Both the position numbers and the translations under genes were made by a program. From Hyphomicrobiaceae bacterium (GTDB lineage Bacteria; Pseudomonadota; Alphaproteobacteria; Rhizobiales; Xanthobacteraceae), in assembly GCA_021324465.1 (NCBI GenBank), contig JAJPJB010000011.1, positions 1-64,000 on the forward strand: 64,000 nt of DNA, in the 5' to 3' direction. Positions 1,714-58,985 of this stretch are shown in pieces (the stretch's first letter is position 1; every line of letters begins with the position of its first letter). A model generated the notes under the pieces. That model was not told where the DNA came from. It saw nothing but the letters and a program-made list of their open reading frames with translations, and searched no databases.

Positions 1714-1862
1714 GGCGTTTCTCTTGACGCCAGCCCGAGGTGGCTTATATCGAAATATCGGGCATGGAGTCGCCCGTGATCTGCCGAAGAGGCTAATGAC
1801 TCCTACCGCGGAATGGTCGCGGTGGGGGTGTGTATCGAACCCACCGCGAGGTGGGTTTTTTG
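1714..1862 (+). ncRNA. Candidate structured small RNA ending in an intrinsic terminator
   Basis: Successive stems can be drawn on the plus strand: GGCGT/ACGCC (1714-1731); CCCGA/TCGGG enclosing ATAT-CGAA-ATAT (1734-1762); GCC/GGC (1783-1793); a ten-pair stem with two G-U pairs at 1801-1827 around the loop GAATGGT; and a terminator at 1840-1862. No open frame of interest spans it. The 5' end is a guess, because no clear promoter was found. It could be a free small RNA or the terminated leader of the downstream MutS-like operon. I do not recognise it as a named family. Confidence 0.5.
1840..1862 (+). terminator. Rho-independent terminator
   Basis: CCCACC (1840-1845), loop GCGA, GGTGGG (1850-1855), then six T. 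This is one of the cleanest intrinsic terminators in the window. It ends about 190 bases before the first MutS-like start, so it closes an upstream transcript or attenuates that operon. Confidence 0.85.
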
Positions 1863-2048
1863 TTGCTCGGGATCGCTGTGCGATTGCTCCATCGCGGGTC
1901 ACCGTATGCCGTTGGGAATGACGAGAGCTGTGGCTCAGGCCACGTGGCCGTACAGATGACGAAACGAAGAGCGCCGACGAAAGCTGTGAACGTCAGGGGC
2001 CGAACTGGCTCATTGCGGTATTCTGCGGCAAAGGGAACCAAAGTGAAT

Positions 2049-3578
2049 ATGGCTTCCAGCATATTATTTGAATGTCCCGAGGATCAGGTCGACAAGGCCG
2101 AGGCGCCTGCATTCTTCAGCGATTTAAATTGCGATCAGATCGTTGCGGCGATCACTGCCGGCCGCGAGGAATACAATCTCGCGCCTTTTTTCCACGCTCC
2201 GCTGCGCCGCATCGGCACGATCGTCTACCGCCAGGAAGTGATGCAGGACCTCGAAACCTGCTCTCTTCGTGAAAAGGTGAATGCATTCGCCGAACGCATG
2301 CGCGACGTTCGCGCTTATCTGGCACGAGTTGAAAAGCTTTATTACCCGCTGCAGCGGCAGGCATGGTTCCTCGATGCAGTCGATATCTACTGTCAAGCCG
2401 TCAGATCGTTCGCGCAGGACCTCTCGGCAGTGAACATCAATTCACGGGCGCTGAAAGGTTTCCGGAACTATCTCTCGCGCTATGTCGGGTCCGCCGGCTT
2501 AAATTTGCTTGCGGTGGAGACTTCAAAAATAAGAGCCGGTCTGGCGTCCATCCAATATACGGTTCAGATAAAGCCGGGCACTTTTACCGTTCGCCGGTAT
2601 CAAGGCGAGGCTGACTACAGCGCGGAGGTCGAAGCCACATTTGCAAAATTCAAACAAGGCGCGGCGAGAAACTATCTGGTGAAATTCAAGGATCGCGACG
2701 AGGATATGAACCATATTGAAGCCAAGATATTGGAATTCGTCGCCAAGCTTCATCCGGACATCTTCCAAGCGCTCGACCACTTTTGTTCAACGCACGGCGA
2801 ATTTATTGACCCTGGCGTGGCGCTGTTCGAGCGCGAGGTTCAGTTCTATCTTGCTTATTTGGATTACATCAGGCCTCTGAAGGAGGCGGGGCTCCGATTC
2901 TGCTATCCGCGCCTCTCTGAAAGGTCAAAGGAGGTTTGCAGTCAACAAGGATTCGATATAGCGCTCGCGCACAAGCTGATTGCCGACAAGAAGAAGGTGG
3001 TCTGCAACGACTTCTATCTAGCGGGCGCCGAGCGAATCCTTGTGGTGTCGGGACCGAATCAAGGTGGCAAGACCACCTTTGCCCGGGCATTTGGGCAGCT
3101 TCACTACCTGGCAAATATTGGATGTCCGGTGCCGGGCAGCAGCGCACAGCTCCTGCATTTCGATCGCTTGTTCACCCACTTCGAAAGAGAAGAGAGGGTC
3201 GAGAATCTTCGCGGCAAGCTGGAGGATGACCTCATAAGAATCAGAAAAATTCTCGATCGGGCGACGCCGCGCTCTGTCATTGTTATGAATGAGATTTTTA
3301 CGTCGACGACAATTCAGGACGAGACGTTCCTCAGCAAAAAGGTGATGGAGCGGCTAATTGCACTTGATTGCTTGTGCGTCTGGGTCACCTTTGTTGACGA
3401 ATTAGCATCATTTGGCCCGCAGACCGTGTCGATGGTGAGTACGGTCGTGCCGGACAATCCGGCGTTGCGAACGTTCAAGATTGTACGACGGCCTGCCGAT
3501 GGGCTCGCCTACGCCATGGCGATCGCGCAGAAGCACGGGCTGACCTACGATTGCATCAGAGGACGCCTAAAGTCATGA
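2049..3578 (+). CDS. MutS-like ATPase, first of a tandem pair
   Basis: 509 residues from the ATG at 2049, preceded by AAAGGGA; the frame is open further upstream but that part overlaps the terminator and looks non-coding. The C-terminal half is a MutS domain V ATPase with Walker A GPNQGGKTT near residue 335 and Walker B VIVMNEIF near residue 410. The N-terminal half corresponds to the lever and clamp part of MutS; the mismatch-reading domain with its Phe-X-Glu motif is absent, as are nuclease and Smr domains. The H-loop usually reading TH is VTFVDEL here, so the switch histidine seems to be missing. The stop codon overlaps the start of the next gene, so the two products probably act together. 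Codon use is more A/T-rich than in the neighbouring housekeeping genes, which suggests transfer. A role in mismatch repair is not implied; the function is unknown. Confidence 0.85.
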   Translation: MASSILFECPEDQVDKAEAPAFFSDLNCDQIVAAITAGREEYNLAPFFHAPLRRIGTIVYRQEVMQDLETCSLREKVNAFAERMRDVRAYLARVEKLYYPLQRQAWFLDAVDIYCQAVRSFAQDLSAVNINSRALKGFRNYLSRYVGSAGLNLLAVETSKIRAGLASIQYTVQIKPGTFTVRRYQGEADYSAEVEATFAKFKQGAARNYLVKFKDRDEDMNHIEAKILEFVAKLHPDIFQALDHFCSTHGEFIDPGVALFEREVQFYLAYLDYIRPLKEAGLRFCYPRLSERSKEVCSQQGFDIALAHKLIADKKKVVCNDFYLAGAERILVVSGPNQGGKTTFARAFGQLHYLANIGCPVPGSSAQLLHFDRLFTHFEREERVENLRGKLEDDLIRIRKILDRATPRSVIVMNEIFTSTTIQDETFLSKKVMERLIALDCLCVWVTFVDELASFGPQTVSMVSTVVPDNPALRTFKIVRRPADGLAYAMAIAQKHGLTYDCIRGRLKS

Positions 3579-5194
3579 AAGCGCACCTCATGTATCCCGA
3601 TCGCGATTTCGACCCTGCGCGCCTGTTGGTGAGAAGGGATCGCGAGCTGCGGTATCGAAGAGACACAACCGATCAGACGTTAAGCTTGAAGCAAGTACTG
3701 CCTTGGAACGAGCAGGCCCTACGGCAGGACCTCGGCCTTGACATCCTATTCAATGAGATGTGTCGCGGCGATACCTTCTTGTTAGAAGCCGCTATGTCGG
3801 TCCTGCTCGCGAGCCTGACCGATCCAGACGTAATCAGGTATCGTCAGCACATACTTGACGACGCCATCAAGAACGAAGTCATTGTCCGAGACATTTATCA
3901 GATTGGCATTGATGCGATCGAGGGCGAGAGAAAGAACTATTGGAGCACGTTGGCCCGCTACCCTGCTGGCACGCTGCACCGGGCCGTGGAGGTGGTGCAG
4001 ATGTTTGTCGGCTGTTTGAAGCGGCTCAGACGCATTGCCGACAAATACGCCGATGGTTTCGCGTCGGAAGGCTTCTCGACACTGTTTTCGATGCTACGAA
4101 GGGAACTCGACGACGAGTACTTTGCGGAAATCGAGGAGCACCTGGGTCGGCTGAAGTTTGGACAAGGTACGCTGATTAGCGCTCAGCTGGGCAAGGGCAA
4201 CAAGGGCTGGAATTACGTCTTGCGCCGGCCGCACGTCGATCAGCGCAATTGGCTCGCCCGATTGCTGTCCGAGCAACAACCAGGTTTCACATTTAGCCTC
4301 CATCCTCGCGATGACAATGGAGCAAGAGCCTTGTCTGAACTGAACGATCGCGGCGTCAATCTCGTCGGCAATGCGCTGGCGCAATCGGCGGACCACATTC
4401 TCAGTTTTTTTCAGATGCTACGGACGGAATTGGCCTTTTACATCGGCTGCCTGAACTTACGTGAAGCGCTTAATGACATCGGCGAGCCGGTCTGCATGCC
4501 GTCGCCGACTTCTGCCGGCCGCAGAAACCTGTCGTTTTCTGGTCTGTATGATCCGTCACTTGCTTTGAGCATGAAGCGCAAGGTCGTGGCGAACGATCTC
4601 GACTTAAAACAAACAGATATTTTTATCATCACAGGTGCCAATAGCGGTGGAAAATCCACCTTTTTGCGCAGCATCGGCATTGCCCAACTGATGATGCAGG
4701 CCGGCATGTTTGTGCCGGCCGAGAGCTTTTCGGCTGAAATATGCGAGGGGCTTTTTACTCACTACAAGCGCGAAGAAGACACCGGCATGGAGAGTGGCAA
4801 ATGGGATGAAGAGCTTGGCAGGATGAGCGAACTCGTCGATCGTATCGGCTCCAATTCACTGCTCCTCTTCAATGAATCGTTTGCGTCAACAAACGAAAGG
4901 GAGGGCTCTGAAATTGCAAGCCAGGTTGTTCGGGCCCTCTTGGACAGTGGCGTTAAGGTGTTTTTCGTAACCCATTTGTACCATTTTGCGCATTCGATAT
5001 TTGTCCGATGGCCTCACCGCGCCACCTTCTTGCGGGCTGAACGGCGTGTCGATGGCACGAGACCGTTCAAATTGATTGAGGCGGCTCCGCTGCAGACAAG
5101 CTATGGCGAAGACTTGTACAAGTCTGTGTTCTCCGCCGCTCAGCATAATGAGCCGGGATCAGTCGACGCTAAGGAGATGGCGCGGGCACAGTGA
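3575..5194 (+). CDS. MutS-like ATPase, second of a tandem pair
   Basis: 539 residues; the ATG at 3575 overlaps the previous stop as ATGA, the usual sign of translational coupling. The C-terminal ATPase has Walker A GANSGGKSTF near residue 354, Walker B LLLFNESFAS near 430, and an H-loop VTHLYHFA that keeps the histidine its partner lacks. Like the partner it has only core, lever and ATPase regions, with no mismatch-binding, Smr or nuclease domain. The most economical reading is a heterodimer in which this subunit carries the complete ATP site. Base composition again differs from the flanking rpmG-topA block. Which MutS subfamily this is, and whether it handles DNA at all, cannot be decided from sequence alone. 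Confidence 0.88.
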   Translation: MKAHLMYPDRDFDPARLLVRRDRELRYRRDTTDQTLSLKQVLPWNEQALRQDLGLDILFNEMCRGDTFLLEAAMSVLLASLTDPDVIRYRQHILDDAIKNEVIVRDIYQIGIDAIEGERKNYWSTLARYPAGTLHRAVEVVQMFVGCLKRLRRIADKYADGFASEGFSTLFSMLRRELDDEYFAEIEEHLGRLKFGQGTLISAQLGKGNKGWNYVLRRPHVDQRNWLARLLSEQQPGFTFSLHPRDDNGARALSELNDRGVNLVGNALAQSADHILSFFQMLRTELAFYIGCLNLREALNDIGEPVCMPSPTSAGRRNLSFSGLYDPSLALSMKRKVVANDLDLKQTDIFIITGANSGGKSTFLRSIGIAQLMMQAGMFVPAESFSAEICEGLFTHYKREEDTGMESGKWDEELGRMSELVDRIGSNSLLLFNESFASTNEREGSEIASQVVRALLDSGVKVFFVTHLYHFAHSIFVRWPHRATFLRAERRVDGTRPFKLIEAAPLQTSYGEDLYKSVFSAAQHNEPGSVDAKEMARAQ

Positions 5195-6365: not shown

Positions 6366-8618
6366 CTAGTAGCCGCCGCTGCGGCCGGCCTTCTTCTGCT
6401 TGTTCGGCCAGCGCGATTTCGGCTCTGAACGCGCCGCATGTCCAGCCCTCAGCGTCGCCGACCTTTCATGGCCCACAAGCGCAAAACGCAGGGCGCCAGC
6501 GACCGGCGCCGCTTCAACGAGCTCGACCGTGACCGGATCACCCAGCCGATGCGTGTGCGACGAGCCGACAAAGGCGCGGCCGGCTTCGTGGAAGCGGAAA
6601 TATTCGTCGCCGATCAAACGTGCCGGGATGAAGCCGTCAGCGCCGGTGTCGTCGAGCTCGACAAAGAGACCGGCGCGGGTGACGCCGGAAATATGGCCGT
6701 CGAAGATCGCGCCGACCCGATCGGCAAGGAAATGTGCGATCAGCCGGTCCGCCGTCTCGCGTTCGGCCTTCATGGCGCGGCGCTCGGTGGCGGAAATATT
6801 CGCCGCGATTTCGGCCAAGCCGCGCGCGTCGGTCCCCTGCGGCAGCCCGTCGGGTCCGAGCCTCATCGCCCGGATCAGGGCGCGATGCACCACGAGATCG
6901 GCATAGCGGCGGATCGGCGAGGTGAAATGCGCATAGCGGCGCAGATTGAGGCCGAAATGGCCAAAATTTTCCGACGAATATTCCGCCTGCGCCTGGGTGC
7001 GCAACACGACTTCGTTGACCAGCCGTTCAATGTCGCGACCTTTGACGCGGTCGAGAATGCGATTGAAGCCTTCCGGGCGCAGCGCGCCGCTTTTCGGCAG
7101 CTTGATATCGAGCGTGGCCAAGAATTCGCGCAAAGCATTGAGCTTTTCCGGCGACGGCTCGTCATGCACGCGATAGATCAGTGGCACCCGCGCCTTCTCA
7201 CAGGTCTCGGCCGCCGCAACATTGGCGAGGATCATGAATTCTTCGATCAGCCGATGCGACTCGAGGCGCTGCGGCATGATCACGCGATCGACCATACCGT
7301 CGGACTTGAGCACGATCTTACGTTCGGGAATGTCGAGATCGAGCGGGTTGCGCTCATTGCGCGCGCGCACCACGGCACGATAAGCGGCATAGAGCGGCCG
7401 GAGAATCGTATCCGCGATCGGCTCGGTATCCTCGTCGGGCCGGCCTGAGACCGCCAGCTGTGCCTGCTCGTAATGCAGCTTTGCTGCCGAACGGATCAGC
7501 ACGCGATGAAATGTATGCGCGCGCTTTCTGCCGTCGGCGCCGATGATCATGCGCACCTCGAGCGCCGGTCGATCTTGGCCGGGCCGCAGCGAGCACAGAT
7601 CGTTGGAAATGCGCTCCGGCAGCATGGGCACGACGCGATCGGGAAAATAAACAGAATTGCCGCGCTTTAGCGCCTCGCGATCGAGCGCCGAGCCGGGCCG
7701 CACATAATAGGCGACATCGGCAATGGCGACGGTCACGATGTGACCGCCCGGATTTTTTGGATCGGGATCAGGCGCCGCGTGGACGGCGTCGTCGTGATCC
7801 TTGGCATCGGGCGGATCGATAGTGACGAAAGGAATCGCGCGCCAGTCCTCGTGCTCCGCCATTGTGGTCGGCCGCGCCGCCGCTGCTTCATCGAGCACGG
7901 CGCGGGGAAAGACATGCGGAATGTCGTGCGCATGAATCGCGATCAGGCTGACTGCGCGCTCGCTTTTGATCGACCCGAGCCGCTCGACCACCGTGCCGGC
8001 CGGCAGGCCAAAGCGACCTTGCCGCGTCACTTCAACGGCAACGAGGTCGCCGTCAGCGGCGCCCAAGGTCGCAGCCGGGCCGATATTGAGCTCACGCCCC
8101 ATCTGCTTCTTGTCGATCGGCACCAGCCGGCCGCCGCCCGCCGGCAGGGCACGAAAAATGCCGAGGCTGCGATGCTTGGCGCGATCGATCAGCTTTATGA
8201 TTCGGCCGGAAAAATCCCCGCCGCGGCGCTCGATGCGAATAAGCGCGCGATCGCCAATGCCGGCGACTTCCCCCGGCCGCGCGCGGCGCGGCCTCGCGAT
8301 GTGGATGACGGGCGGTTCACCGTGCGCTTCCTCGTCCCATTCGGTCGGCCGGGCCAAAAACTCGCCATCGCTGTCGCGGCTGGTGACGTCGGCCAGCACG
8401 ACCGGAGGCAGGGTGCCGGAATGATGCAGCCGCTTGCGCCGGCGGTCGATCGCGCCGTCTTCGGCAAGATTGCGCAGCATGCGGTTGAGCGCGGCGCGGT
8501 CGGCATTCTTGGCGCCAAAGGCGCGTGCGATTTCGCGCGTGCCGATCCTGCCGCTGCGCTCGCGGATGAAGGCGATCAGCTCGTCGCGGGAAGGAAGGCG
8601 GCTCTCAGAGCGTTTCAT
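6366..8618 (-). CDS. rnr: Ribonuclease R
   Basis: About 750 residues. The order is an N-terminal winged helix (SRDELIAFIRERSGRIGTRE), cold-shock-like OB domains, the RNB catalytic domain with TIDPPDAKDHDDAV carrying the metal-binding aspartates, and a C-terminal S1 domain with a basic tail ending in NKQKKAGRSGGY. RNase R is a processive 3'-5' exoribonuclease that degrades structured RNA and helps in rRNA quality control. The start is the ATG at 8618 (MKRSES); a GTG at 8627 is the other candidate. It lies 50 bases after topA and is probably cotranscribed with it. Confidence 0.96.
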   Translation of the reverse strand: MKRSESRLPSRDELIAFIRERSGRIGTREIARAFGAKNADRAALNRMLRNLAEDGAIDRRRKRLHHSGTLPPVVLADVTSRDSDGEFLARPTEWDEEAHGEPPVIHIARPRRARPGEVAGIGDRALIRIERRGGDFSGRIIKLIDRAKHRSLGIFRALPAGGGRLVPIDKKQMGRELNIGPAATLGAADGDLVAVEVTRQGRFGLPAGTVVERLGSIKSERAVSLIAIHAHDIPHVFPRAVLDEAAAARPTTMAEHEDWRAIPFVTIDPPDAKDHDDAVHAAPDPDPKNPGGHIVTVAIADVAYYVRPGSALDREALKRGNSVYFPDRVVPMLPERISNDLCSLRPGQDRPALEVRMIIGADGRKRAHTFHRVLIRSAAKLHYEQAQLAVSGRPDEDTEPIADTILRPLYAAYRAVVRARNERNPLDLDIPERKIVLKSDGMVDRVIMPQRLESHRLIEEFMILANVAAAETCEKARVPLIYRVHDEPSPEKLNALREFLATLDIKLPKSGALRPEGFNRILDRVKGRDIERLVNEVVLRTQAQAEYSSENFGHFGLNLRRYAHFTSPIRRYADLVVHRALIRAMRLGPDGLPQGTDARGLAEIAANISATERRAMKAERETADRLIAHFLADRVGAIFDGHISGVTRAGLFVELDDTGADGFIPARLIGDEYFRFHEAGRAFVGSSHTHRLGDPVTVELVEAAPVAGALRFALVGHERSATLRAGHAARSEPKSRWPNKQKKAGRSGGY

Positions 8619-8669
8619 GGGGCGCACATTATTACGTGGCCCCTCCGATGGGCCTTCTAAAGCCCCGTC

Positions 8670-11336
8670 CTATTCGGCCGCCTGAGTCTTCTTCCGCGCC
8701 TTGGCGGTCGAGGCGGCCGCCTTGGGCTTGGCCGCCGCCGGCTTGCCGGCCGCGCGCTGGCGGGTCCCGCCGCTTGTGGTGCGCTTGCCGGCCGGCGCCT
8801 TGCGCGGCCGCGCATGCGGCGCGGGCGAGGCACGGCCGGCGCGCGCGTCGATCAGAGCCACGGCCTCCTCCAGTGTCACTGTCTCCGGCGTCTTGTCGGC
8901 CGGCAGCGTGGCATTGAGACCGTCGTGACTGACATAGGGGCCGTAGCGGCCCTTCTTGGCCACGATCGGCCCGCCCTTGGTCGGATGATCGCCGAGCATA
9001 CGGCCCGGATCGGCGCCAAAGCGCTTGCGCGGCCCTTTGGCCTTTTTTTCGGCGATCAGCGTCACTGCGCGATTGAGCCCGAGAGTGAAGACCTCCTCGG
9101 GCGATTCCAAATTCGCATAGGTTTTGCCGTGCTGCACGTAGGGCCCGTACCGGCCGATACCGGCTACGATCGGCTCACCGTCCTCGGGGTGCCTGCCGAT
9201 CTCGCGCGGCAGCGAGAGCAGCTGCAATGCACGCTTGAGATCGATCTCATCGGGCGCCACACCTTTCGGCAGGCCGGCGCGCTTGGGCTTCTCGCCGTCC
9301 TTGCCTTCACCGAGTTGCAGGTAGGGGCCGAACCGGCCGCTGCGCACTGAAACATCGAGGCCGGTCTCCGGATCCTGGCCCAAAATCTTGGTGCCTATAT
9401 CAGCGCCTTCGCCCGAGCTCGACAGCGAGCGGATGTAGCGGCATTCCGGATAGTTCGAGCAGCCGATGAAGGCGCCGAATTTTGACAGTTTGAGCGACAG
9501 CCGACCGTCGCGGCATTGCGGGCAGACGCGCGGATCGGAGCCATCCTCGCGCGGCGGGAACAGATGCGGCGACAACAGCGCGTCGAGCGCATCGATCACC
9601 TCGGAGATTTTCAGATCCTTGGTCTCGTCGATCGCGCCGATGAAATCGCGCCAGAAATCACGCAGCACATCGCGCCAAGCTACCTCGTTGTTCGAGATCT
9701 GATCGAGCTGATCCTCGAGATTGGCGGTGAAATCATATTCGACATAGCGCTGAAAGAAGCTTTCCAGGAACGCCACGACAATGCGCCCGCGGTCCTCGGG
9801 CACCAGACGCCGCTTGTCGAGCCGCACATATTTGCGATCCTTCAGCACTTGCAGGATCGAGGCATAGGTCGAGGGTCGGCCGATGCCGAGTTCTTCCAGC
9901 CGCTTGACCAGGGAGGCTTCCGAATAGCGCGGTGGCGGTTCGGTAAAGTGCTGGTTGGCGGTGATCGCACGTTTGGTCAACCGCTCGCCGTCCGCCATTG
10001 GCGGCAGGCGGCGGGACTCTTCGTCGTCGGGATCCTCGTCGCGGCCCTCCTGGTAGAGCACCAAAAAGCCGTCGAATTTCACGACCGTGCCGGTCGCGCG
10101 CAGCTCAAGGAGGCGGCTCGCCACTCTCGCGTCGATGTCGACCGTGGTGCGCTCAAGCTCGGCAGATTCCATCTGGCTTGCCACCGTGCGTAGCCAGATC
10201 AGTTCGTAGAGCTTGGCCTGGTCGGCATCGAGATAGGGCTTGGCATCGCGCGGGCGACGATTGAGATCGGTCGGGCGGATCGCCTCATGCGCCTCCTGTG
10301 CGTTCTTGGCCTTTGTCTCATAGCGGCGCGGCGCATTGGGCACATAATCGCGGCCGTAATCGCTTTCGATCACGCGGCGCACGGCGCCGATCGCCTCCTC
10401 GGCGATCTGCACGCCGTCGGTACGCATATACGTGATCAGGCCGAAGGTCTCGCCGCCGATGTCGACGCCCTCATAGAGTCGCTGCGCCACCCGCATCGTA
10501 TGCGCCGGCGCGAAGCCAAGCTTGCGGCTCGCCTCCTGCTGCAGGGTCGAGGTGGTGAACGGCGGATAGGGATTGCGGCGAACCGGCTTCGCCTCCACCG
10601 ACTTTACCGTGAAGGTCGCGGTGTCCAGCGCCCGCTTGAACGCTTCGGCCTCGGCACCCGAGCCGATATCCAGCTTCTGCAGTTTCTTGCCATCGGCGCC
10701 AATGAGCCGCGCTTCAAACGTTTCGGCGCGCGGCGTCGCCAGCGTCGCCACCAGCGACCAATATTCCTGCCGCACGAATTTTTCGATTTCGAGCTCGCGG
10801 TCCGCGACGAGGCGGAGCGCCACCGATTGCACACGGCCGGCCGAACGCGCGCCCGGCAGCTTGCGCCACAGCACCGGCGAGAGCGTAAAGCCGACGAGGT
10901 AATCCAGCGCGCGGCGCGCGAGATAGGCATCGACCAGCGCCTGATCGATGGCGCGCGGATGCGCCATGGCTTCCGTCACCGCCTGCTTGGTGATGGCATT
11001 GAAGACGACGCGCTCGATCGCCTGCGATTTGAGCGCCTTCTTTTCCTTCAGAATCTGCAGCACATGCCAGGAAATCGCTTCACCCTCGCGATCCGGGTCG
11101 GTGGCGAGGATGAGCTTGTCGGCATCCTTGACGGCGCGAGCGATGTCATTGAGCCGCTTCTGCGCCTTGGGATCGACCTCCCAGAGCATGCGGAAATCGT
11201 GGTCTGGATCGACCGAGCCGCTTTTCGCCGGCAGATCGCGCACATGGCCGAACGAGGCCATGACCGCGTAGCCCTTGCCCAGATACTTGTTGATTGTCTT
11301 CGCCTTGGCCGGCGATTCCACGAGTACCAGATTCAT
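8670..11336 (-). CDS. topA: DNA topoisomerase I (type IA)
   Basis: 888 residues from MNLVLVESPAKAKTINKYLG. The TOPRIM domain occupies the first 140 residues, the active-site region reads GLITYMRTDGVQ with the catalytic tyrosine, and a zinc ribbon (CPQCRDGRL, then CSNYPECRY) lies near residue 600. Several repeats of RYGPYV type follow, and the tail is Lys/Ala/Pro-rich. The enzyme relaxes negative supercoils by single-strand passage. The length and repeat-rich end are normal for Hyphomicrobiales. It leads the minus-strand set rnr, NUDIX and rpmG. Confidence 0.98.
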   Translation of the reverse strand: MNLVLVESPAKAKTINKYLGKGYAVMASFGHVRDLPAKSGSVDPDHDFRMLWEVDPKAQKRLNDIARAVKDADKLILATDPDREGEAISWHVLQILKEKKALKSQAIERVVFNAITKQAVTEAMAHPRAIDQALVDAYLARRALDYLVGFTLSPVLWRKLPGARSAGRVQSVALRLVADRELEIEKFVRQEYWSLVATLATPRAETFEARLIGADGKKLQKLDIGSGAEAEAFKRALDTATFTVKSVEAKPVRRNPYPPFTTSTLQQEASRKLGFAPAHTMRVAQRLYEGVDIGGETFGLITYMRTDGVQIAEEAIGAVRRVIESDYGRDYVPNAPRRYETKAKNAQEAHEAIRPTDLNRRPRDAKPYLDADQAKLYELIWLRTVASQMESAELERTTVDIDARVASRLLELRATGTVVKFDGFLVLYQEGRDEDPDDEESRRLPPMADGERLTKRAITANQHFTEPPPRYSEASLVKRLEELGIGRPSTYASILQVLKDRKYVRLDKRRLVPEDRGRIVVAFLESFFQRYVEYDFTANLEDQLDQISNNEVAWRDVLRDFWRDFIGAIDETKDLKISEVIDALDALLSPHLFPPREDGSDPRVCPQCRDGRLSLKLSKFGAFIGCSNYPECRYIRSLSSSGEGADIGTKILGQDPETGLDVSVRSGRFGPYLQLGEGKDGEKPKRAGLPKGVAPDEIDLKRALQLLSLPREIGRHPEDGEPIVAGIGRYGPYVQHGKTYANLESPEEVFTLGLNRAVTLIAEKKAKGPRKRFGADPGRMLGDHPTKGGPIVAKKGRYGPYVSHDGLNATLPADKTPETVTLEEAVALIDARAGRASPAPHARPRKAPAGKRTTSGGTRQRAAGKPAAAKPKAAASTAKARKKTQAAE

Positions 11337-57033: not shown

Positions 57034-57058
57034 AAAAAAGAGCGCCTTGCGGCGCCCT
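57034..57058 (-). terminator. Rho-independent terminator of glnB-glnA
   Basis: On the minus strand GGGCGCC (57058-57052), loop GCAA, GGCGCTC (57047-57041), then seven T (57040-57034). It lies 80 bases past the natural glnA stop at 57140, which supports the longer reading of glnA as the ancestral one. Confidence 0.9.
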
Positions 57059-57139
57059 TTGAGTTCGCATTGTCGATGCAATGCAGGGAGGATGAGCAAC
57101 GCCACGCGCAGTAATAAACACTACGCGCTGCAGCAAACG

Positions 57140-57298
57140 CTATGCGGAGTAATACATATCGAACTCGACCGGATGCGGCGTGTGCTCGAAGCGGATCACC
57201 TCGGTCATCTTCAGATCCATGTAGCTGTCGATGAAATCATCGTCGAACACGCCGCCTGCCTTCAGGAACGCGCGGTCTTTGTCGAGCTCCTCGATCGC
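57140..57298 (-). pseudogene. Severed C-terminal segment of glnA, in frame behind an amber codon
   Basis: Directly after the TAG at 57301-57299 the same frame continues 52 codons: AIEELDKDRAFLKAGGVFDD and DSYMDLKMTEVIRFEHTPHP, ending VEFDMYYSA then TAG. This is the normal C-terminus of glutamine synthetase, including the hydrophobic thong. Read through, the protein would be 469 residues, the normal length. Codon quality is undamaged, so the amber change is either recent or not real. Confidence 0.85.
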
Positions 57299-58549
57299 CT
57301 AACGCAGTGAGCCGCACACCGTCGGGATCTTCTTCAGCTCCGCCGGCGGCAGATCGTAGAGATCCTTGTCGATCGCCTCGCCCGGATCGAGCTTGTTCTT
57401 GATGCCGTCGAGCCCGGCCATCAGCATCGCCGCGAAGGCGAGATACGGATTGGCAAGCGGGTCGGGGAAGCGCACCTCTACGCGCTTGGCCTTGGGATTG
57501 GTCGTATAAGGGATGCGGCAGGAGGCCGAGCGATTGCGCGCCGAATAGGCGAGCAGCACCGGCGCCTCGAAGCCCGGGACCAGCCGCTTATACGAATTGG
57601 TCGTCGGATTCGAGAATGCGTTGATCGCCTTGGCGTGCTTGATGATGCCGGCGATATAGGACAGGCAGGTCTCCGACAGGTCGGAATATTTATTGCCGGC
57701 GAAGACCGGCTTGCCATCCTTCCAGATCGACTGGTGGCAGTGCATGCCCGAGCCATTGTCGCCATAGACGGGCTTGGGCATGAAGGTTGCGGTCTTGCCG
57801 TAGACCTGCGCCACCTGCTGGATGCAGTATTTGTAGATCATCAGCTGGTCGGCCATCACCGTGAGCGGCGAGAACTTCATGCCGAGCTCGTGCTGCGCGG
57901 ACGCCACTTCGTGGTGATGCTTCTCGACCTTGACGCCCATCTTGGCCATGGCCGCGAGCATTTCCGAACGCATGTCCTGCGCGGAATCCTGCGGCGGCAC
58001 CGGGAAATAGCCTTTCTTGGTGCCGACGTGATGGCCGAGATTGCCGCCTTCGTAGTCGGCATCCGAACTGGTCGGGAATTCGGTCGAGTCGAGCTTGAAG
58101 CCGGTATTGTAGGGATCGGCCCTGTATTTGACGTCGTCGAACACAAAAAACTCGGCCTCCGGGCCGAAATAGACCGTGTCGCCGACGCCGAGCGACTTGA
58201 CCATGCCCTCGGCCCGCTTGGCGATGCCGCGCGGATCGCGGTTATAGGGCTCACCGGTGGTCGGCTCGAGCACGTCGCAAATCAGCGACAGCGTCGTCTC
58301 GGCAAAAAACGGATCAATGGCGGCCGTCGCCGGATCCGGCATCAGGCACATATCGGATTCATTGATCGCCTTCCAACCGGCAATCGACGAGCCGTCGAAC
58401 ATCATGCCTTCGGCAAAGGTCTCTTCCTCGATCTGACTGACGTCGAAAGTGACATGCTGCCACTTGCCGCGCGGATCGGTGAAACGGAAGTCGACGTATT
58501 TCACGTCGCTGTCCTTAATCGTCTTCATGACATTCTTTGGCGTCGTCAT
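57299..58549 (-). CDS. glnA: Glutamine synthetase type I, prematurely ended by TAG
   Basis: 416 residues from [20 protein letters not shown]. All catalytic parts are present: [16 protein letters not shown], the [11 protein letters not shown] glutamates, [15 protein letters not shown], and the adenylylation loop [12 protein letters not shown] with Tyr398. It forms glutamine from glutamate, ammonia and ATP. The family length is 468-469; here a TAG replaces what is normally GAG in GSLREA, removing 52 residues that hold the two rings of the dodecamer together. A stable enzyme from this frame is doubtful unless the codon is suppressed or the base is a sequencing error. glnB lies 90 bases upstream and is presumably cotranscribed from a sigma-54 promoter. 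Confidence 0.93.

Positions 58550-58640: not shown

Positions 58641-58985
<345 letters not shown>

Follow-up and report, generated by a model that had tools for sequence, protein, structure and literature searches.

The glnA locus and its amber codon

The window analysed here is a stretch of 64,000 nucleotides, positions 1-64,000 on the forward strand of contig JAJPJB010000011.1, from assembly GCA_021324465.1 of a Hyphomicrobiaceae bacterium that GTDB places in the Alphaproteobacteria, Rhizobiales, Xanthobacteraceae. It carries a gene for type I glutamine synthetase (GSI) whose reading frame is interrupted by a single amber codon, and the features of this locus are as follows.

58641 to 58979, minus strand: glnB (PII protein, PF00543), directly upstream of glnA
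57140 to 58549, minus strand: glnA, whole frame, type I glutamine synthetase, with its ATG at 58549
57299 to 58549, minus strand: first part of glnA, 416 codons to the in-frame TAG, 611.5 bits on TIGR00653
57299 to 57301, minus strand: in-frame amber codon TAG, codon 417, a position holding Gln or Glu in 52 of 52 compared relatives
57140 to 57298, minus strand: glnA remnant, 52 intact codons and the natural stop TAG, covering the C-terminal helices, among them the "helical thong" between the rings
57037 to 57060, minus strand: hairpin like an intrinsic terminator, 10 pairs and a T-run, 3' of glnA, recognised by match to the consensus

The inner TAG follows the residues ...PTVCGSLR, and the initial annotation, which had placed a TAG at 57301-57299 after GSLR, is confirmed in that the codon is the 417th in frame with the ATG. 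Its statements that 52 further codons follow intact and in frame to a stop at 57140, and that readthrough would give 469 residues, are likewise borne out, the natural stop being itself a TAG (57142-57140) and the length being 469 positions when the inner TAG is counted as one; for the terminator that it had put at 57034-57058, a terminator-like hairpin of 10 pairs is matched at 57060-57037. On its own the first part of the gene passes the curated TIGR00653 cut-off of 429.15 bits and lies below that of the narrower NF007006 (643.6 against 845 bits). The remnant alone scores 62.5 bits on NF007006, over profile positions 418-468 of 469, and 33.7 bits on TIGR00653, values that lie under the whole-protein cut-offs of both families, as is expected of a fragment. 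Its per-codon coding score of 0.47 is the highest among the post-stop stretches of the 49 window genes, a set picked by the analysis script in which the next value is 0.35, and the remnant is thus not a product of chance.

The window GlnA is 61.8% identical to E. coli GlnA (TIGR00653) over 468 aligned positions and has in common with it the place behind glnB, the active-site positions and the adenylylation loop; the difference is that the window gene stops at E. coli residue 416 (mature numbering), with which the TAG aligns, so that the last 53 residues with the thong are off. The 17 positions checked for the active site and for regulation, the adenylylation tyrosine 397 among them, all lie upstream of the TAG, these being what we take to be the relevant positions in E. 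coli GlnA numbering. The complete C-terminal thong is not in the same open frame, its residues being found solely in the remnant.

The gene was compared with 52 relatives, made up of 29 loci from a first retrieval (L005-L033; glnA matches in 58 of 61 genomes, with loci taken for the best 30, the window's own included) and 23 of the 80 loci of a second retrieval (L035-L057), two of the 52 rows being identical sequences. The frame runs without a break through 469 codons in every one of them. At codon 417, 27 have GAG, 12 GAA, 12 CAG and one CAA, that is Glu in 39 and Gln in 13, and a stop at this codon occurs in none of the 52. The initial annotation was therefore mistaken in giving Glu as the following codon of all related GlnA genes, as those with Gln include the six nearest relatives by identity, all six of which have CAG. 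In a tree built without codon 417 the window gene falls in a weakly supported group of its own genus, adjoining the CAG members, whilst nine GAG members of the genus form a separate, well-supported clade. With CAG in the closest kin, a single change is more likely to have been a C-to-T transition, and CAG to TAG would be the simplest history rather than the GAG to TAG first proposed, although the weak branching leaves some doubt; the part of that proposal that stands is that one base change is enough.

Neither the codons before the TAG nor those after it show decay. Against the eight nearest relatives dN/dS ranges from 0.066 to 0.148 over codons 1-416 and from 0.049 to 0.202 over codons 418-469; comparisons among those eight relatives themselves give means of 0.125 before and 0.139 after the TAG, with maxima of 0.220 and 0.324. 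Two residues of the window gene (161 and 164) depart from columns that are invariant in the other 52 rows, a kind of deviation that each of the 52 relatives shows between none and three times. As amino-acid changes are not in excess, a long-standing pseudogene is rejected. With the stop absent in relatives and the rest of the frame intact, the gene has the pattern of a recent nonsense pseudogene; a frame free of decay means either that the change is very recent or that it is a consensus error, absent from the organism.

The second and third glutamine synthetase genes

Three PF00120 genes are present in this genome (G000), the two beyond glnA being the following.

G000:C6:106238-107665 (L162:11236-12666), minus strand: second GSI, full length, beside moaE
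G000:C67:29089-30090 (L003:1054-2565): third PF00120 gene, divergent and glutamine-synthetase-like

It had been suggested that a second glutamine synthetase might be found elsewhere in the genome, and indeed the gene on C6 is intact and belongs to the GlnA family, with 647.6 bits over 2-462 of the 462 positions of TIGR00653 and all 17 checked positions kept, including those of the active site and of adenylylation. It is 53.8% identical to the window GlnA. It is probably maintained by purifying selection, with a dN/dS of 0.08 against the gene on a Microvirga ossetica plasmid (at a high dS of 1.6) and of 0.19 against the copy in another genome, G033 (at a dS of 1.1, also high). The third gene reaches 189.3 bits on TIGR00653, well under the GlnA cut-off, differs at five of the 17 checked positions and lacks the adenylylation tyrosine, and because of its low score and active-site changes it is rejected as a backup. 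It is possibly a gamma-glutamyl-amine ligase, and the frame beside it (L003:82-1026) looks like a putative aromatic-ring oxygenase. A search with a simple pattern for sigma-54 promoters gave no match upstream of glnB-glnA, of the second GSI gene or of the M. ossetica gene.

No counterpart of the second GSI gene was found in 19 same-genus genomes (60-97% complete), nor is one encoded at any of the 19 same-genus loci fetched for the moaE side. The gene begins 559 bases past moaE in this genome; moaE itself was matched in 15 of the 19 same-genus loci, with at least 980 bases beyond it in 13 of those 15, and in many genomes of the genus the match to C6 breaks off where moaE ends or close by. The idea that the 138 kb contig is a contaminant is rejected, since its moaE-side neighbourhood is common to the genus. 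The best plasmid matches are to Sinorhizobium terangae (82.0%), Microvirga sp. VF16 (81.2%) and M. ossetica (80.6%), each at 99-100% coverage, and after these three identity falls to 61.6% in a search that matched 107 plasmid records. Whilst the gene here is thus 80-82% identical to these three glutamine synthetases, theirs are plasmid-borne and this one lies beside moaE on a contig whose moaE side is shared by the genus. The second GSI gene is closer to the plasmid copies of other genera, which lie outside the sampled family, than to those of its own family and is absent from the rest of the sampled genus, from which we conclude that it was probably acquired horizontally.

One second-GSI carrier was seen among 60 relatives, and the gene is peculiar to this genome within the sampled genus; that it might be peculiar to it altogether was rejected at the level of the family. 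At least two GlnA-type matches at E 1e-100 were counted by hand, among the matches listed, in 46 of 391 family genomes including this one, and 42 of the 46 have the second GSI, in eight of 47 genera with this genome counted. The remaining four (G010, G264, G266 and G322) have resident-type matches only, partial in three of them. The same-genus genome G010 has two overlapping partial glnA copies on separate contigs (C226 and C443), one of them with an in-frame TAA, possibly a sign of mixed strains. The copies in the 41 other carriers (of 390 other genomes) are 71-74% identical to the second GSI described here and, as here, co-reside with glnA; where they differ is that in all 41 the resident-type glnA is without an in-frame stop. 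The idea that carriers tend to lose glnA is not borne out by these genomes, and having a spare GSI does not usually make glnA dispensable over evolutionary time.

Mutation, consensus error or readthrough

If translation ends at the TAG, GlnA would lose its last 53 residues, among them the C-terminal helical thong, by which the two rings of the GSI dodecamer are held together. In Helicobacter pylori glutamine synthetase helices 13 and 14 (residues 461-481), which form the helical thong, are described as locking the two hexamer rings together (PMC6076278), and C-terminal helices are given the same ring-joining role in Gram-positive glutamine synthetases (PMC9249791). With this ring-joining element lost the truncated product would be expected to be unstable or inactive. 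It is highly improbable that the 416-residue protein instead has a function of its own, say as a regulatory subunit or in the form of single hexamer rings, and that the TAG is adaptive: such a protein would retain every checked active-site and regulatory position, all of which precede the stop, but none of the 52 relatives ends at codon 417, and in the solved structures, as far as these two sources describe them, the C-terminal helices join both rings.

A further explanation is that a genuine TAG is decoded, through amber suppression or a local recoding signal, so that full-length GlnA is made. The intact remnant, in which amino-acid changes are not in excess, would fit with this, and nothing else speaks for it. 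The genome gave 43 tRNA matches, of which 41 were typed by ARAGORN, one more is a Leu tRNA (anticodon TAG) and the last, cut by the start of its contig, has a CAT anticodon by eye; the suppressor tRNA with anticodon CTA that the initial annotation had offered as one option is not among the 43 tRNA genes found. The tRNAs for Ile-GAT, Ala-TGC, Glu-TTC and Pro-TGG were not found in the assembly either, so the tRNA set is incomplete and an unassembled suppressor is conceivable. However, loss of release factor 1 is rejected, as prfA is intact (491 bits against a cut-off of 423.25), and TAG is an everyday stop in this genome, terminating 16 of the 49 window genes (the glnA fragment counted) as well as the natural end of glnA. 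Furthermore none of 165 other domain matches across the whole genome (114 to ABC_tran, for which 150 of 183 candidates were scored, and 51 to adh_short) contains an in-frame stop, and together with the 16 TAG-ended genes this rejects a general reassignment of TAG. As no relative has a TAG at codon 417 either, we regard readthrough to full-length protein as very unlikely. Less likely still is a low level of readthrough in which a few full-length subunits would set the assembly of GSI and the acquired synthetase would do the bulk of ammonia assimilation. The case has the look of a recent gene break of the ordinary sort, or of an error in base calling, rather than of a novel reading of the code.

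Between these two the sequence itself is neutral, as the same letters are expected from a genuine nonsense mutation and from an error in the consensus. The error explanation holds that the TAG is a wrong base, or else a minority allele that became the consensus in an assembly probably derived from a metagenome, that glnA is intact and that the second GSI is an unrelated extra. An error would leave exactly such a frame, with no decay before or after the TAG, and one transition suffices. The assembly, of a 4.6 Mb genome, is in 107 contigs, and no 16S rRNA match was found in it by a search that was positive in nine of 14 control genomes, which suggests that the rRNA operon is unassembled; this and the four missing tRNAs point to a metagenome or short-read assembly, in which a single wrong base is plausible. 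In addition glnA is uninterrupted in all 41 other second-GSI carriers. Against an error stands the survey of 165 domain matches without an in-frame stop, according to which nonsense errors are uncommon in this assembly, although by our estimate that survey says little against error rates lower than some 1 in 10,000 bases. Also against it, the broken gene has a substitute here, which is not so in any of the 19 same-genus genomes.

It is this last point, a complete substitute for the broken gene in one genome alone of the sampled genus, that tips the balance slightly toward a real mutation. A spare GSI is found in 41 of 390 other family genomes, so chance is not a very likely cause of its pairing with a broken glnA, by a factor of about ten; equally, with a spare copy in roughly one of every nine or ten family genomes, coincidence is still possible. 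The retention of glnA by all 41 other carriers brought our estimate for a mutation down from a little better than even to even, and raised that for an error from clearly below even to just short of it. We therefore favour, at about an even chance, a recent nonsense mutation in the resident glnA that is tolerated through the acquired second GSI, and regard an error or minority allele as a close rival with only slightly lower probability. Of the options first put forward, that of a mutation backed by a second synthetase has gained from the finding of that gene, amber suppression has lost its CTA tRNA in the set of 43, and the GAG ancestor has become doubtful.

Under the recent nonsense mutation the resident glnA would carry an amber codon that arose most simply from CAG, and it is from the assembled sequence that we infer its presence in the cell; the loss would be tolerated by virtue of the complete second GSI on C6, which presumably compensates. 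Recent pseudogenes that have a single nonsense codon and have been made redundant by an acquired homologue are a known general type. This case resembles them in its one stop, in the want of any other decay and in the homologue elsewhere in the genome, and differs in that the stop is known from the consensus of one assembly. Loss of the main ammonia-assimilating gene has a parallel in another bacterium, the endosymbiont Blochmannia vafer, which has no glnA and is reported to be without other ammonia assimilation (PMC3017870); the gene is absent there, whereas the present genome, of 4.6 Mb, has one stop in the gene and a substitute for it. The literature searched gave no account of a nonsense allele of glnA in this group, although this does not prove that there is none.

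If the stop is real, this genome has been caught as an acquired GSI begins to replace the resident glnA, before any other decay, and it has the sole broken glnA among the 42 second-GSI carriers of the sampled family, a neat but ordinary instance of gene replacement by a homologue. If the stop is an error, it cautions that one assembly is not enough for a core gene to be called broken.

Other reading frames in the window

Two same-frame neighbours at 8670-11336 and 6366-8627 were considered as another broken gene and rejected, as they encode topoisomerase I and an RNB-domain exoribonuclease. These two genes (window 6366-11336) lie in one reading frame and are parted by a TAG and 14 codons. Finally, on the plus strand at 1830-5194 there are two adjacent frames, each of which matches MutS domain V (PF00488) and no other Pfam family at E 0.001.
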